Positions 12,471-17,009 of a stretch of 64,000 nucleotides of DNA are shown piece by piece (within the stretch, counting starts at the first letter, position 1; the number at the start of each line of letters is the position of its first letter). Where the stretch lies: NCBI GenBank assembly GCA_037157805.1, contig CP089983.1:12191001-12255000 (forward strand), written 5' to 3'. Source of the stretch: Sorangiineae bacterium MSr11367 (GTDB lineage Bacteria > Myxococcota_A > Polyangia > Polyangiales > Polyangiaceae). A model generated the notes under the pieces. That model was not told where the DNA came from. It worked only from the letters and a program-made list of their open reading frames with translations, and did not search any database. A program made the position numbers and the translations under genes.

Positions 12471-14081
12471 TCAGGCGCCCAAGTAGAGCTTCAACGCTTC
12501 CGCGGCGGCGCGCCGGTCGAACGGCACCGAGGCGAGCTCATCGCGTTTGCCGATCTGCTCGAACAGGTCGACCAGGAAGTCCTGGAACTGATCGGCCTCG
12601 ACAATGGCCCGGTGGAGTCGAGCGGGCTCGAGCAGATCCGTCTCTTCCAGGGCGGTCATGGCGCTGACGAACGCATCCACACGCGGATAGTCCGCGGTTC
12701 GGAGGAGCGGGTAGCCCATGGCGCGGAAGTACACGAGGAACTCGCGCACGAACTCGAGCGGTGAAGCGCCGCTCCAGCGCACCTCGCCCGCGGGAACGGC
12801 GCGCGCCTTTTGCGCAAAGGCGCGCACGATTTGGGCGAACATCCACACGTCGCGTCGCAGACGCTCGGACAAGTTGCGTCGCGCCGCCTGGTCGTCGAAG
12901 ACGCCCTGCGCCTCGAGGCGGGCGCCCAAGGTTGCGCAGAGAAAGAGAATCCCGTTCTGCAGTGCCGGCCGCAGGGTCCCAATGACCTGCAAGGTTGCGC
13001 GGCGCACCTCGTCGGAGCTCGGTGCGTACTCGGGCGCGGGAAACTCGTGCTCGAACGCGCGACGCAGCTCGAGGCGGAGGTTGGCCGCGAGCCCCTCGAG
13101 CGAGGCCTTGATGTCGAGCAAGCGATGCCCATCGGCGAGGAGCGATTCGTAACGCTGTGCGATGTGGCTCGCGGGCACGTTGAACAGATCGCGCTCGTAG
13201 CCCTCGGCCAGAAGACGCCCCGCGCGGTGCCGCAAATGGCTCGTGAGCGCGCGCGCATCGGAGCGAAGGACGCTGAGCACCAGGTAGATGATCCCGGACG
13301 TGCGCCGCGGCTCGCGGCTGTCGCGCGTGGTCGCCTCGAGCAGCCCCAGGTAACGCAGCATGCGAAAGAGCGAGAGGAACGTCAGCGCCACCAGCCGCCG
13401 CGCATGCTCCTGCGTGACGGAGCGGGTCAGCTCCAAGATGCGCTGGTTGGTGATGCGGTCGAACTCCGGGCGGAACTCCAGGGCCGAGAGCGAATTGAAG
13501 TACACCGACTGGGCCACCTCCCGCTGCGCGACGCCGAGCATCGCGTAGAAGGTGCGGAAGGGCACGCGGGGCAGCCGCGAGATGCCGCTGGCCACTTCGA
13601 CCATGTTCGTCATCGCGTGGCGCATGACGAAGAGCGAGCCGGCGGGCGTGTCCTGCGTCAGGTTCTCGCTGACCAGCCGCGAGCGCGCACCGTCGTCGGG
13701 CAGCACCGTCTCGAGGTAGCGCTGAAACACGAACGAGCGCTCCCGCTCCATGAGCAAGGTGCGGCAAAGGGAGATGATGCGGCCGATCGCCTCCCGTGCG
13801 AGCGCCACCGGTTCGCGGAAGTCCTGCGCGACCACGGGGGTGCGCCGAGGCTGCCCGGGGTGGTTGCGCGGGTTGGCGAAGCACGCGAGGCCCTTGAGCA
13901 GAATCTCCAGCTCGAAAAGGTGCTCTTCCTTGCGCTCGGCACCGAGCATGGAAAACCATGCCTCGCGTGCTTGGGCGTGCTCCCGCCGCAGCCCGCGCGT
14001 GTCGCGGAGGAGATCGGCGTAGGCGTCGCGTTCCCCAGGAACGGCGGTGCGCGGCGGGACGAGCGAGGTGGTGTGGGCCAC
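12471..14081 (-). CDS. large helical protein of unknown function
   Basis: The 536-residue product starts MAHTTSLVPPRTAVPGERDAY. No signal peptide or transmembrane segment is apparent; the sequence is dominated by amphipathic, Arg/Leu-rich helices (for example RILELTRSVTQEHARRLVAL and LKGLACFANPRNHPGQPRR). I do not recognise a family or catalytic motif. It stands alone between the convergent histone-like gene and the divergent RiPP-type operon. Codon use and length strongly support a real gene. Long open frames on the opposite strand and in another minus frame over the same region are composition artefacts. Confidence 0.75.
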   Translation of the reverse strand: MAHTTSLVPPRTAVPGERDAYADLLRDTRGLRREHAQAREAWFSMLGAERKEEHLFELEILLKGLACFANPRNHPGQPRRTPVVAQDFREPVALAREAIGRIISLCRTLLMERERSFVFQRYLETVLPDDGARSRLVSENLTQDTPAGSLFVMRHAMTNMVEVASGISRLPRVPFRTFYAMLGVAQREVAQSVYFNSLSALEFRPEFDRITNQRILELTRSVTQEHARRLVALTFLSLFRMLRYLGLLEATTRDSREPRRTSGIIYLVLSVLRSDARALTSHLRHRAGRLLAEGYERDLFNVPASHIAQRYESLLADGHRLLDIKASLEGLAANLRLELRRAFEHEFPAPEYAPSSDEVRRATLQVIGTLRPALQNGILFLCATLGARLEAQGVFDDQAARRNLSERLRRDVWMFAQIVRAFAQKARAVPAGEVRWSGASPLEFVREFLVYFRAMGYPLLRTADYPRVDAFVSAMTALEETDLLEPARLHRAIVEADQFQDFLVDLFEQIGKRDELASVPFDRRAAAEALKLYLGA

Positions 14082-14193: not shown

Positions 14194-14224
14194 GGGATAC
14201 CTCGCTAGCCTTGGCGCGTATCCC
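14194..14224. promoter_or_regulatory. inverted repeat upstream of the RiPP-type operon
   Basis: Perfect 7-bp arms GGGATAC (14194-14200) and GTATCCC (14218-14224) flank a 17-nt spacer, about 95 bp before the precursor gene. Spacing and symmetry suit an operator for a dimeric regulator, or a leader hairpin. A second small hairpin (CCCGCG-ACAT-CGCGGG, 14281-14296) sits just before the ribosome site. No regulator gene is adjacent. Confidence 0.4.
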
Positions 14225-14316
14225 TGGGACGACTCGACCCGAATCGATTCGGGCGAGCGCAATCGCCAGGAAAAATGGCCCCCGCGACATCGCGGGCAAT
14301 TGGAGGAGAGATCATC

Positions 14317-14625
14317 ATGAAGATGGGTAAGGTTCTCGCGGTGTCTGCGGTTTCGGGCATTCTGATGGGCGTCGTCGCCGGGTGTGGCGGCGACAAGGCA
14401 GCCGCGGCGCCTGCGGCCGACCCCGCCACCACCTCCGGCGAGAAGAAGAGCTGCGGTGCGGATGGCAAGAGCGGTTGCGGCGGCGCCGGCGGTGCGGCCG
14501 GTGCAAGCTCGGCGACGGCGCCGGCCGGTTCGGCGGCCCCGTCGGGAGAGAAGAAGAGCTGCGGCGGTGGCAAGGGCAGCTGCGGCGGCGGCAGTGGTGC
14601 GACCACGACGCCCCCGAAGAAGTAA
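14317..14625 (+). CDS. Cys-repeat lipoprotein, probable MNIO-modified RiPP precursor (HvfA/bufferin-like)
   Basis: The 102-residue product has a lipoprotein signal peptide (lipobox VAGC, Cys23). The mature part is Ala/Gly/Ser-rich with two matching modules: GEKKSCGADGKSGCGG (Cys46, Cys54) and GEKKSCGGGKGSCGGG (Cys82, Cys89). It is followed 13 bp downstream by a DUF692 enzyme and then a DUF2063 protein, the standard trio for copper-responsive ribosomal peptides in which an MNIO enzyme modifies Cys in xKCG/SCG repeats. I infer that these Cys become thiooxazole/oxazolone-type copper ligands. Unusually, the lipobox predicts a lipid-anchored product. GGAGGAG lies 9 nt before ATG 14317. Confidence 0.75.
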   Translation: MKMGKVLAVSAVSGILMGVVAGCGGDKAAAAPAADPATTSGEKKSCGADGKSGCGGAGGAAGASSATAPAGSAAPSGEKKSCGGGKGSCGGGSGATTTPPKK

Positions 14626-14638
14626 CGGAGTCGACGAC

Positions 14639-15493
14639 ATGAGCTTCCGCGCGCGGCACGGCCTCCCGGATCTCGGCGTGGGCGTTGGCGCGCGCGTGAG
14701 GCATTACCCCGCGATTTTCGACGAGGCGCCCGATGCGCCGGTGTCGAAGATCGACTGGTTCGAGATCATCAGCGACAACTTTTTCTGTCCCGGCGGGCCA
14801 CCGCAGAAGAACCTGCAGCGTCTGCGTGCCCTTCGCCCGGTCGTGCCCCACGGCGTGTCCCTCTCCATCGGGGCGAGCCATGCGCTGGACCAAGAATACC
14901 TGCGCGGGCTGAAAGGGGTCGTGGCCAAGCTTCGCCCGCCGTGGGCCTCGGATCACCTCTGTTGGTCCGGTGTGCCGGGCGCGGATCTGCACGACCTTCT
15001 TCCGTTGCCGTACACGCGTGAGGCCCTGTCGCACGTCGTCGAACGGGTGCGTCAGGTGCAGGATTTCCTCGAGCTGCCGTTCGCCCTCGAGAACGTGTCC
15101 AGCTACATGACGTACCGCGCGAGCACGATGCCCGAGTGGGAATTTTTGGCCGAGGTCGCCGAGCGCGCTGATTGCGGCATTCTGCTCGACTGCAACAACG
15201 TGTTCGTCAGCGCGCACAACCACGGCTTCGACCCGAACGTGTACATCGACGCCATTCCCGCCGACCGCGTGGTGCAGATCCACCTCGCCGGCTACACCGA
15301 CAAGGGCTCGTACTTGCTCGACACGCACTCGGCGCCGGTGGTGGATGCCGTGTGGGAGCTCTACCGCCGCACCCTTCGGCGCATCGGGCCCATCTCGACG
15401 CTCATCGAGTGGGACGACGACCTGCCCACGTTCGACGTGTTGGTGGCCGAGGCCGAGCGTGCCCGCCGCATCCGCGAAGAGGTGGCCTCGTGA
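14639..15493 (+). CDS. bufB: DUF692-family MNIO enzyme (BufB/HvfB/MbnB-like)
   Basis: The 284-residue protein belongs to the multinuclear non-heme iron oxidative enzymes, a TIM-barrel family that oxidises Cys residues of peptide precursors. Expected metal ligands are visible in order: WFEIISDNFF, PHGVSLSIG, ASDHLCW, ALENVSSY, LLDCNNVFVSAHNHG, VQIHLAGY and LIEWDDD. Length is typical. CGGAG precedes ATG 14639. It sits between the Cys-repeat precursor and the DUF2063 partner; its stop overlaps the partner start (GTGA). The family assignment is firm; the substrate (the 14317 product) is inferred from position. The bufB symbol is by analogy only. Confidence 0.9.
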   Translation: MSFRARHGLPDLGVGVGARVRHYPAIFDEAPDAPVSKIDWFEIISDNFFCPGGPPQKNLQRLRALRPVVPHGVSLSIGASHALDQEYLRGLKGVVAKLRPPWASDHLCWSGVPGADLHDLLPLPYTREALSHVVERVRQVQDFLELPFALENVSSYMTYRASTMPEWEFLAEVAERADCGILLDCNNVFVSAHNHGFDPNVYIDAIPADRVVQIHLAGYTDKGSYLLDTHSAPVVDAVWELYRRTLRRIGPISTLIEWDDDLPTFDVLVAEAERARRIREEVAS

Positions 15494-16284
15494 CGAGCCT
15501 GGCCGAGTTGCAAGCGTTCCTCGCGCGGGCGGCCACGTGCCCACGGCCCATCCCGGAGGATGCGCCGCTGGCCGCCGAGGCGGAGCTCGTGGCCACCGGC
15601 AGCGCGCGCCTTTCGCCCGCCGAGCAGGTGGACATCTACCGCGAGCAGTTCTGGCTGCGCCACCGGGGCTCGCTTCTGGAGGACTACCAGACGTTGCAGC
15701 ATTTGCTGGGCGACGAGGGGTTCGATGCCCTCTGCCGCCGTTACCTGGAGGTGCACCCGCCGGACTGCCCTTCCTTGCGCGATCTCGCCGCCAAGATGCC
15801 GAGCTTTCTCGCGCACACGGACCCCTACCGCGACGATGGGCTGCTGGCCGACTGTGCGCAGGTCGAGTGGGCCTTCATCGAAGCGTTCGACGCAGCCGAT
15901 GCGCCGCCGTTCGATGCCTCGGTGCTGGCCACCACCGAGGAGGACGCGTGGGAGCGAGCGGTCATCCTCTTTCACCCGTCCTTGCAGGTTCTTTCGCTCG
16001 CCCACCCCGCGCAAACCTTCCGCGAAGCCATTCGCCGCGGCGAAACGCCGGAGCGTCCCGCCCCGCAGCGAACGCACCTCGTCGTGTACCGCGCCAACGA
16101 CGTCCTCCGCGTCGAGGTCGTCGAGCCGATGGCGTTCGCCCTGCTCGAACGCCTCGCGCGCGGGATGCCACTTGGCCCCGCGGGCGAGGAGATCGCGGCG
16201 ATGGACGACTCCGTGGAGTCGAGCATCGGGGCATGGTTCCAGAACTGGGTGGCCTTGGGCTGGCTCGCCGACGTGCGCGTATAG
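15490..16284 (+). CDS. bufC: DUF2063-family RiPP partner protein (BufC/HvfC-like)
   Basis: The 264-residue product has the N-terminal DUF2063 helical domain (YREQFWLRHRGSLLEDY, LLGDEGFDALCRRYLEVHPP, CPSLRDLAAKMPSFL) and a C-terminal domain resembling a RiPP recognition fold. In this family the protein binds the precursor and presents it to the MNIO enzyme. GTG 15490 overlaps the stop of the DUF692 gene by 4 bp, the usual translational coupling for the pair. No transporter or regulator follows; the next gene is on the opposite strand, so the operon is the minimal three-gene form. Confidence 0.88.
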   Translation: MTSLAELQAFLARAATCPRPIPEDAPLAAEAELVATGSARLSPAEQVDIYREQFWLRHRGSLLEDYQTLQHLLGDEGFDALCRRYLEVHPPDCPSLRDLAAKMPSFLAHTDPYRDDGLLADCAQVEWAFIEAFDAADAPPFDASVLATTEEDAWERAVILFHPSLQVLSLAHPAQTFREAIRRGETPERPAPQRTHLVVYRANDVLRVEVVEPMAFALLERLARGMPLGPAGEEIAAMDDSVESSIGAWFQNWVALGWLADVRV

Positions 16285-16311: not shown

Positions 16312-16917
16312 CTACTTGCCCCGCTGGTTGCCGCGCGGGTGGAAGTTGAACGGGTAGTGCATGCGCGACTCGAAGCCCTTGGGGCTCTCGGCGAACTTGA
16401 CGTTCTTGATGATCGCGATGATGCACTTGCCCAGGCCCTCGTCGTGGATCTGGCTCTTCGAGTCGTCCACGGCGATGTCGGTCACGATGCCCTTGGGGTC
16501 GATCGTCCACTTGATGTCGATGTCGCCTTCGAGGCTTGGATTGCGCTTCACCGCGTCGTCGTAGCACTTGCGCGCTTCGTCGCGGCGCGAGCCGACGATG
16601 GTCTGCACGTCCTCGCGTCGGCGCCCGATTTCCCCATCTCCGCTCGGGCGCGGACCGCCTTGGCCCTTCGTCTCCACGGTGGTCGTCGACGACGTCGTGA
16701 GCTTGGCGCCTTGCAGATCGCCGTTGCCGCTCAGGGTGGAGGTCGTCGTGGTGGGCGGGCCGGCATCGACCGCCTGTGCGGGCGGAGGGCTCGTCGTTTC
16801 CGCCGACGCAGGCTCGGGCGTCTTCGGCGGCTCGGACGAGCCTCCGGATCCGCCGCATGCGGCAACGCCAAGAAGGGAAGTGACCACTGCCACGGTGGCA
16901 AAAAGCGGAGCGCGCAT
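16312..16917 (-). CDS. lipoprotein with AgmX/PglI (TonB-like) C-terminal domain
   Basis: The 201-residue product has a lipoprotein signal peptide (lipobox VAAC), a Pro/Thr/Ser-rich periplasmic linker (about residues 25-100) and a C-terminal domain beginning RRREDVQTIVGSRRDEARKCYDD and continuing DIDIKWTIDPKGIV and GLGKCIIAIIKNVKF, ending YPFNFHP. The two Cys (ARKCYDD and GLGKCII) and the G-x-x-I/V-I-P-G-x-V pattern match the AgmX/PglI C-terminal domain of myxobacterial gliding and adventurous-motility proteins. GGAGG 8 nt upstream supports ATG 16917. The role here is unknown; the linker suggests it spans part of the periplasm. Confidence 0.78.
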   Translation of the reverse strand: MRAPLFATVAVVTSLLGVAACGGSGGSSEPPKTPEPASAETTSPPPAQAVDAGPPTTTTSTLSGNGDLQGAKLTTSSTTTVETKGQGGPRPSGDGEIGRRREDVQTIVGSRRDEARKCYDDAVKRNPSLEGDIDIKWTIDPKGIVTDIAVDDSKSQIHDEGLGKCIIAIIKNVKFAESPKGFESRMHYPFNFHPRGNQRGK

Positions 16918-17009
16918 GGGAAAACCTCCGACAATGTCAGACGGGTACAATGTTATCACGATGCTAGACGCCACGGGCGCGCTGCCGCATCATCCAACGT
17001 GTCGGGACG

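Follow-up and report, generated by a model that had tools for sequence, protein, structure and literature searches.

A putative lipid-anchored bufferin/captophorin operon with a pared-down cysteine core in Sorangiineae bacterium MSr11367

What kind of peptide is produced by a short gene set in which a cysteine-bearing lipoprotein precedes an MNIO enzyme and a DUF2063 protein, and which part of such a system is new? Here this was addressed for a locus in a 64,000-nt stretch of the Sorangiineae bacterium MSr11367 genome (contig CP089983.1, positions 12,191,001 to 12,255,000; hereafter the window). The three ORFs were recovered where the first-pass annotation had placed them (Table 1), with 13 nt between the precursor and MNIO genes and a 4-nt overlap (GTGA) between the MNIO and partner genes, a compact unit forming one operon. 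A GGAGGAG sequence lies upstream of the precursor ATG, and the start originally assigned to the unit, 14194, is 2 nt ahead of the promoter motif. None of six neighbouring genes compared with Pfam was metal-related: the minus-strand gene at 12471-14081 had no Pfam match, that at 16312-16920 (also minus) had a sub-threshold TonB_C match, and the other four encode an OmpA-family protein, a Ppx/GppA phosphatase, a protein kinase and an HNH protein. DoxX is absent from the three-gene unit.

Table 1. Features of the operon (positions are those of the window).
Feature	Position	Strand	Description
ECF-type promoter motif GATACC-N15-CGTA (GATACCTCGCTAGCCTTGGCGCGTA)	14196..14220	+	121 nt upstream of precursor ATG
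Precursor (A)	14317..14625	+	102-aa lipoprotein, putative reduced-core bufferin-like RiPP precursor; genus-conserved
Lipoprotein signal, lipobox V-A-G-C, Cys23, +2 residue Gly	14317..14385	+	Sequence
Cys module 1, GEKKSCGADGKSGCGG, aa 41-56, Cys46 and Cys54	14437..14484	+	Sequence
Cys module 2, GEKKSCGGGKGSCGGG, aa 77-92, Cys82 and Cys89	14545..14592	+	Sequence
MNIO (B), bufferin-maturase type	14639..15493	+	PF05114, NF050167, structure model
DUF2063 partner (C), starting with GTG; fold of the C-terminal half possibly RRE-like	15490..16284	+	PF09836, model

The hydrophobic signal of the precursor closes with V20-A21-G22-C23, the lipoprotein signal with a lipobox cysteine that characterizes DAG-RiPPs. 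The four core cysteines were confirmed at residues 46, 54, 82 and 89, as first annotated, and all five cysteines are kept in the three genus genomes compared, although these precursors differ pairwise by 16 to 25 non-synonymous codons. Finding at least four cysteines in 79 core residues has a probability of about 0.003 against a background of 19 cysteines in the 2457 residues of seven window genes. By genus conservation and cysteine count, the cysteine pattern exceeds chance. Among published precursor classes, Buf2 is defined by six conserved cysteines and KNxCKG-type motifs, and the core has four cysteines and lacks these motifs; Buf1 is defined by DUF2282, and the precursor gave no Pfam hit; the EGKCG repeats of the oxazolin type are absent, in agreement with the original description of a different repeat; and the C-x4-C arrangement of the CxxxxC group is replaced by C-x7-C and C-x6-C spacings. 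At the sequence level, the core matches no published precursor signature among those tested here.

The MNIO scored 349 bits against PF05114 and 346 bits against the NCBIfam model NF050167 MNIO_BufB (cut-off 310), and fell below the NCBIfam cut-offs of HvfB (238.8 bits, cut-off 360), ApyH, MbnB and ChrH, which argues for a bufferin-type enzyme; assignments as a methanobactin, ChrH, ApyH or oxazolin enzyme were rejected on these scores. The top Foldseek hits of its structure model (pLDDT 93.1) were TglH, 3BWW and MbnB. Eight residues, H71, H106, E151, D184, H215, D228, H230 and E257, were invariant in 21/21 aligned MNIOs, and phmmer aligned them with identical residues in 3BWW and MbnB; these we take to be the iron ligands. 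The partner scored 65.7 bits against PF09836 (cut-off 27.2), consistent with the DUF2063 signature, and stayed under the cut-offs of NGO1945_C (23.8 bits, cut-off 27) and HvfC (53.9 bits, cut-off 142). No solved structure was matched by phmmer with the partner sequence; TglI and NGO1945 emerged through its model (pLDDT 94.6), which matched over its whole length 8hi7_A, a TglI chain (E 3.6e-7), and NGO1945 (3dee; E 1.7e-5), with a weak match to the stand-alone RRE TbiB1 (E 2.2).

The genome (13.6 Mb, one contig) carries three MNIOs. The second (L166:2601-3840; genome C1 about 6446100-6447339) also occurs at L087 and L089 and so in all three genus genomes. The lipoprotein ahead of it has a long linker rich in Ala and Pro with SCGAGTCG at its end, where the C-x4-C arrangement resembles that of the uncharacterized CxxxxC group of the literature; the DUF2063-like partner of this MNIO in the window genome is convergent, on the opposite strand (L166:3837-4631), and the ECF motif is absent from the 300 nt upstream of this unit. 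The third, distant MNIO (L167:1994-2893; genome C1:9588580-9589317) scored 82 bits on PF05114 and is preceded by a short ORF with three cysteines at its end, possibly another precursor.

The first-pass annotation had regarded membrane tethering of an MNIO-modified peptide as the novelty, a view that no longer holds. Chen et al. (2025) produced triacylated, MNIO-modified NedA, demonstrating triacylation and a change of -12 Da over three EGKCG motifs, and found more lipoprotein precursors by mining (PMC12636315); Antoine et al. (2025) predicted lipoprotein signals for about 16% of Buf2 bufferins (PMC12452194). The lipo-NedABC system shares with the window an MNIO, a partner and a lipobox precursor, whereas NedA, from Neisseria dentiae, has EGKCG repeats of the oxazolin type (PMC12636315) and the scores place the window enzyme with BufB rather than HvfB. 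Lipoprotein Buf2 bufferins (PMC12452194) share the A-MNIO-DUF2063 order and an orthologous MNIO; their signal is similar in the closest relatives, and some of their loci also have the promoter motif, but the window core lacks KN[ED]CKGKGGC-type motifs and has its four cysteines in K-x-S-C-[SG]-[GA] contexts. Peptides of the thiooxazole class are now called captophorins, and their precursors fall into three groups (PMC12668002); the window unit likewise has an MNIO with DUF2063 dependence, and 5-thiooxazoles would be its expected products, but its core, with cysteines preceded by Ser/Gly and followed by Gly, fits none of the three. The new part therefore looks to be the core. A description of the reduced core was not found in the open literature, and supplementary tables (e.g. 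the unclassified precursors in Table S2 of Antoine et al.) may list some.

The distribution of this core was examined across the family. An MNIO match was found in 90 of 108 genomes, and 70 loci from 69 genomes, covering the genus and the better-scoring matches, were analyzed (MNIO paralogues at about 40% identity were considered within the genus only). The gene before the MNIO encodes a lipoprotein Buf2 bufferin in 45 loci (e.g. Sorangium cellulosum So0157-2, L007), a reduced lipoprotein without Buf2 motifs in 18, among them the window, and no recognized precursor in seven (L118, at a contig end, L123, L129, L135, L152, L153 and L158), where a lipobox-free search gave nothing convincing. In the other 63, a cysteine-bearing lipoprotein lies upstream of the MNIO, the nearest within 370 nt. 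The main extraction rule, a lipobox and three cysteines, gave 59 of these, and the remaining four, L126, L132 (with a non-canonical lipobox, LQGC), L133 and L142, were picked out by eye; because the rule demanded a lipobox, its rate is not independent evidence. L150, which the motif rule had misplaced, was assigned to Buf2. A rough search found a partner ORF in 65 of the 70 loci, but for some, the window among them, the frame was clearly wrong; the partner comparison was based on 28 chosen, aligned relatives.

Core cysteines numbered six to eight in the 44 Buf2 lipoproteins counted and one to four in 17 of the 18 reduced ones, whose commonest cysteine context is K-x-S-C-[SG]-[GA]: of 60 core cysteines, 39 have Lys at -3, 36 Ser at -1, 53 Ser/Gly at +1 and 58 Gly/Ala at +2. 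GEKKSC also occurs in L162, from a different genus. On whether homologous loci keep the enzymes and lose the cysteine repeats, which the first-pass annotation had posed as a check, the outcome was divided: the GEKKSCG-type repeat is not general, 45 of 70 MNIO loci carrying a Buf2 core in its place, and cysteines as such persist, all 63 precursors having at least one in the core, a count on which the search rule, requiring at least two cysteines overall, has a bearing. At the extremes, the 66-residue lipoprotein before the MNIO of L126 (G034), recognized by eye, has a single core cysteine (SAKGSCGAK), and in L125 (G106) one MNIO is preceded by two tandem lipoprotein Buf2 precursors.

A search of 377 genomes of the phylum with the window precursor gave matches in six: its own genome, G012, G050 and G051 (reduced), G049 (Buf2, E 4.7e-6) and G254. 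The last (L202, E 7e-4) was rejected as a chance signal-peptide hit in a lipoprotein that appears by eye to be a lytic transglycosylase, and for this reason signal similarity alone was treated as weak evidence. Conversely, a Buf2 lipoprotein of G091 used as query matched the precursor in 3/3 genus genomes (E 7e-6 to 3e-5). These matches in both directions, with the lipoprotein Buf2 bufferins preceding the MNIOs of relatives, further point to a bufferin-type system. Identity to the window signal was 81% for L097 (reduced) and 71% for L102 (Buf2), against a shuffled mean of 17% and 95th percentile of 29%; across all Buf2 signals it averaged 25%, below that percentile, so that precursor homology rests on the near relatives and on gene position.

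An MNIO tree was built from 80 sequences, comprising 69 of the 70 family loci (L129 was dropped by length) and 11 chosen from a set of 80 loci; no branch has the outgroup rows as one of its sides. G040 grouped with the window and its two congeners in one clade (98/85). The reduced label required four changes on the tree, three of them forced by well-supported branches, compared with 16.4 for shuffled labels. A single clade for 17 reduced rows (L157 left out) was rejected (AU p 0.0009) and one for the ten reduced rows of the window's larger clade was not (p 0.49); both groups were defined with the tree already in view, and L162 sits on a long branch. Rejection of a single reduced clade suggests that the cysteine-bearing core was probably rewritten at least twice beside the same enzyme in this family. 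We infer that the change ran from Buf2 to reduced, because Buf2 cores are widespread and also occur in outgroups from other phyla. L157 (G054) encodes a 150-residue lipoprotein with eight core cysteines in SCGAK/GCG-type repeats; its MNIO groups with outgroup enzymes, perhaps marking a further origin of reduced cores.

The lower cysteine numbers of the reduced cores, down to one in L126, would also suit a decaying bufferin that is losing its cysteines beside the same operon and enzymes, the peptide being marginal or disappearing. We consider this unlikely, as all five cysteines are retained in the genus despite the codon differences given above, the enzyme and partner reading frames are intact in the window, and similar K-x-S-C contexts occur in lineages that do not form one clade.

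The operon's promoter motif is kept in G001, G002 and G040. Across the family, 26 of the 63 sequences upstream of precursor genes contain GA[AT]ACC-N15/16-CGTA, 15 of them at spacer 15 and 11 at spacer 16, and none has it at spacers 11-14 or 17-19, while 37 lack the strict motif; 100 dinucleotide shuffles gave a mean of 0.22 and a maximum of 2 for a slightly wider form. Since the motif was derived from the loci on which it was counted, its occurrence before other genes weighs more. One NrsF gene was detected in the window genome, with an ECF sigma gene before it that has the motif 61 nt ahead of its start. NrsF matches occurred in 71 genomes; of 30 NrsF loci listed from these, 27 include an ECF gene, and the strict motif precedes 16 of these (nine with spacer 15, seven with 16), with none at spacers 11-14 or 17-20; a broader form raised this to 20, leaving seven with neither (mononucleotide-shuffle means 0.01 for the strict and 0.055 for the broader form). 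Across precursor loci, association of the motif with NrsF is only modest: NrsF occurs in the genomes of 24/26 strict-motif loci and 26/37 loci without it (Fisher p 0.056), and in 29/31 against 21/32 for a still broader motif also allowing CATA (p 0.011), relatedness being ignored in both tests. The motif is also present at L097 and L114, whose genomes gave no NrsF among the part of the NrsF candidates scored. An extended motif, allowing up to three mismatches, occurs once in the genome, and with no second copy no wider regulon was read from it. A palindrome near 14240 was rejected as an element, not being kept letter for letter in relatives.

The motif is reminiscent of the copper-induced SigF/NrsF regulon of Caulobacter, which includes two DUF692 clusters and whose sigF mutant is copper-sensitive (PMC8224329). 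Both have an ECF-NrsF pair and a similar motif before the sigma gene, but the Caulobacter site is GTAACC-N16-CGAA (PMC3511200) and not GA[AT]ACC-N15/16-CGTA, and regulation in the window is predicted from motif occurrence. Antoine et al. place sigma/NrsF genes beside Buf1 and not Buf2 clusters (PMC12452194), which fits control in trans here. The motif before both precursor and NrsF-linked ECF genes, with the Caulobacter parallel, suggests metal-stress control.

The most satisfactory explanation, which we regard as likely, is that the three genes form a lipid-anchored bufferin/captophorin operon with a pared-down core under metal-stress control. Gene order, homology, lipobox, core classes and the promoter motif shared with ECF-NrsF genes are visible in the DNA itself; modification, lipidation, metal and regulation are predicted. 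Under metal stress, the anti-sigma factor NrsF, whose gene lies outside this locus, would free its ECF sigma factor, and RNA polymerase would then transcribe the operon from the GATACC-N15-CGTA promoter. In the cytoplasm, the DUF2063/RRE partner would deliver the precursor to the MNIO, which would oxidize core cysteines to 5-thiooxazoles; after export by Sec, the lipoprotein pathway would put lipid on Cys23. The product would be a metal buffer of the thiol-heterocycle type fixed to the envelope, with Cu(I) as the likeliest metal. Against this explanation stand the six neighbours without a metal gene, the missing DoxX, a core outside the tested signatures, motif absence from 37/63 precursor and 11/27 ECF upstream regions, and the substrate limits of the EGKCG enzyme FonBC, which modified NVCGG only once, needed a small residue after the cysteine and left a single-repeat substrate unmodified (PMC12668002).

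The same lack of neighbouring metal genes would agree with a peptide serving another metal or stress (gold, silver, cadmium, chromate, mercury or oxidants), the reduced core reflecting an altered preference; Caulobacter SigF responds to chromate and cadmium besides copper (PMC3511200, PMC8224329) and MerC-bufferin fusions point to mercury (PMC12452194). This is improbable given that the thiooxazole peptide fontiphorin binds copper (PMC12668002) and that the window MNIO is orthologous to those adjoining Buf2 cores. That the MNIO acts on some substrate encoded elsewhere and has the lipoprotein as an incidental neighbour is very improbable, for although seven of 70 loci (one at a contig end) have no recognized precursor beside the MNIO, the other 63 have a cysteine-bearing lipoprotein upstream, and in the three genus genomes DUF2282 was found in none and one Buf2 query matched known precursors only.

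Beyond this locus, the lipid-anchored bufferin/captophorin reading may extend to the K-x-S-C-[SG]-[GA] lipoproteins as a further captophorin core type, arisen at least twice by rewriting of Buf2 with the signal, the MNIO-partner pair and, in part, SigF-type control retained. This wider proposal is tentative, our assessment having moved from evenly balanced to slightly on the doubtful side because FonBC did not modify its single-repeat substrate. If true, substrate choice by the MNIO-partner pair would rest on the signal/linker region and a minimal cysteine site rather than on the repeat motif, and that site could shrink to one core cysteine, as in L126. One family with an orthologous modifying enzyme and two very different cores offers a natural experiment on what MNIOs need in a substrate, and precursors this small (102 residues and four core cysteines in the window; 66 residues and a single core cysteine in L126) lend themselves to experiments in vitro. 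Through the common ECF motif, lipo-bufferin operons would be tied to a single regulator of metal stress, at a great distance from Caulobacter, where that regulator was discovered.
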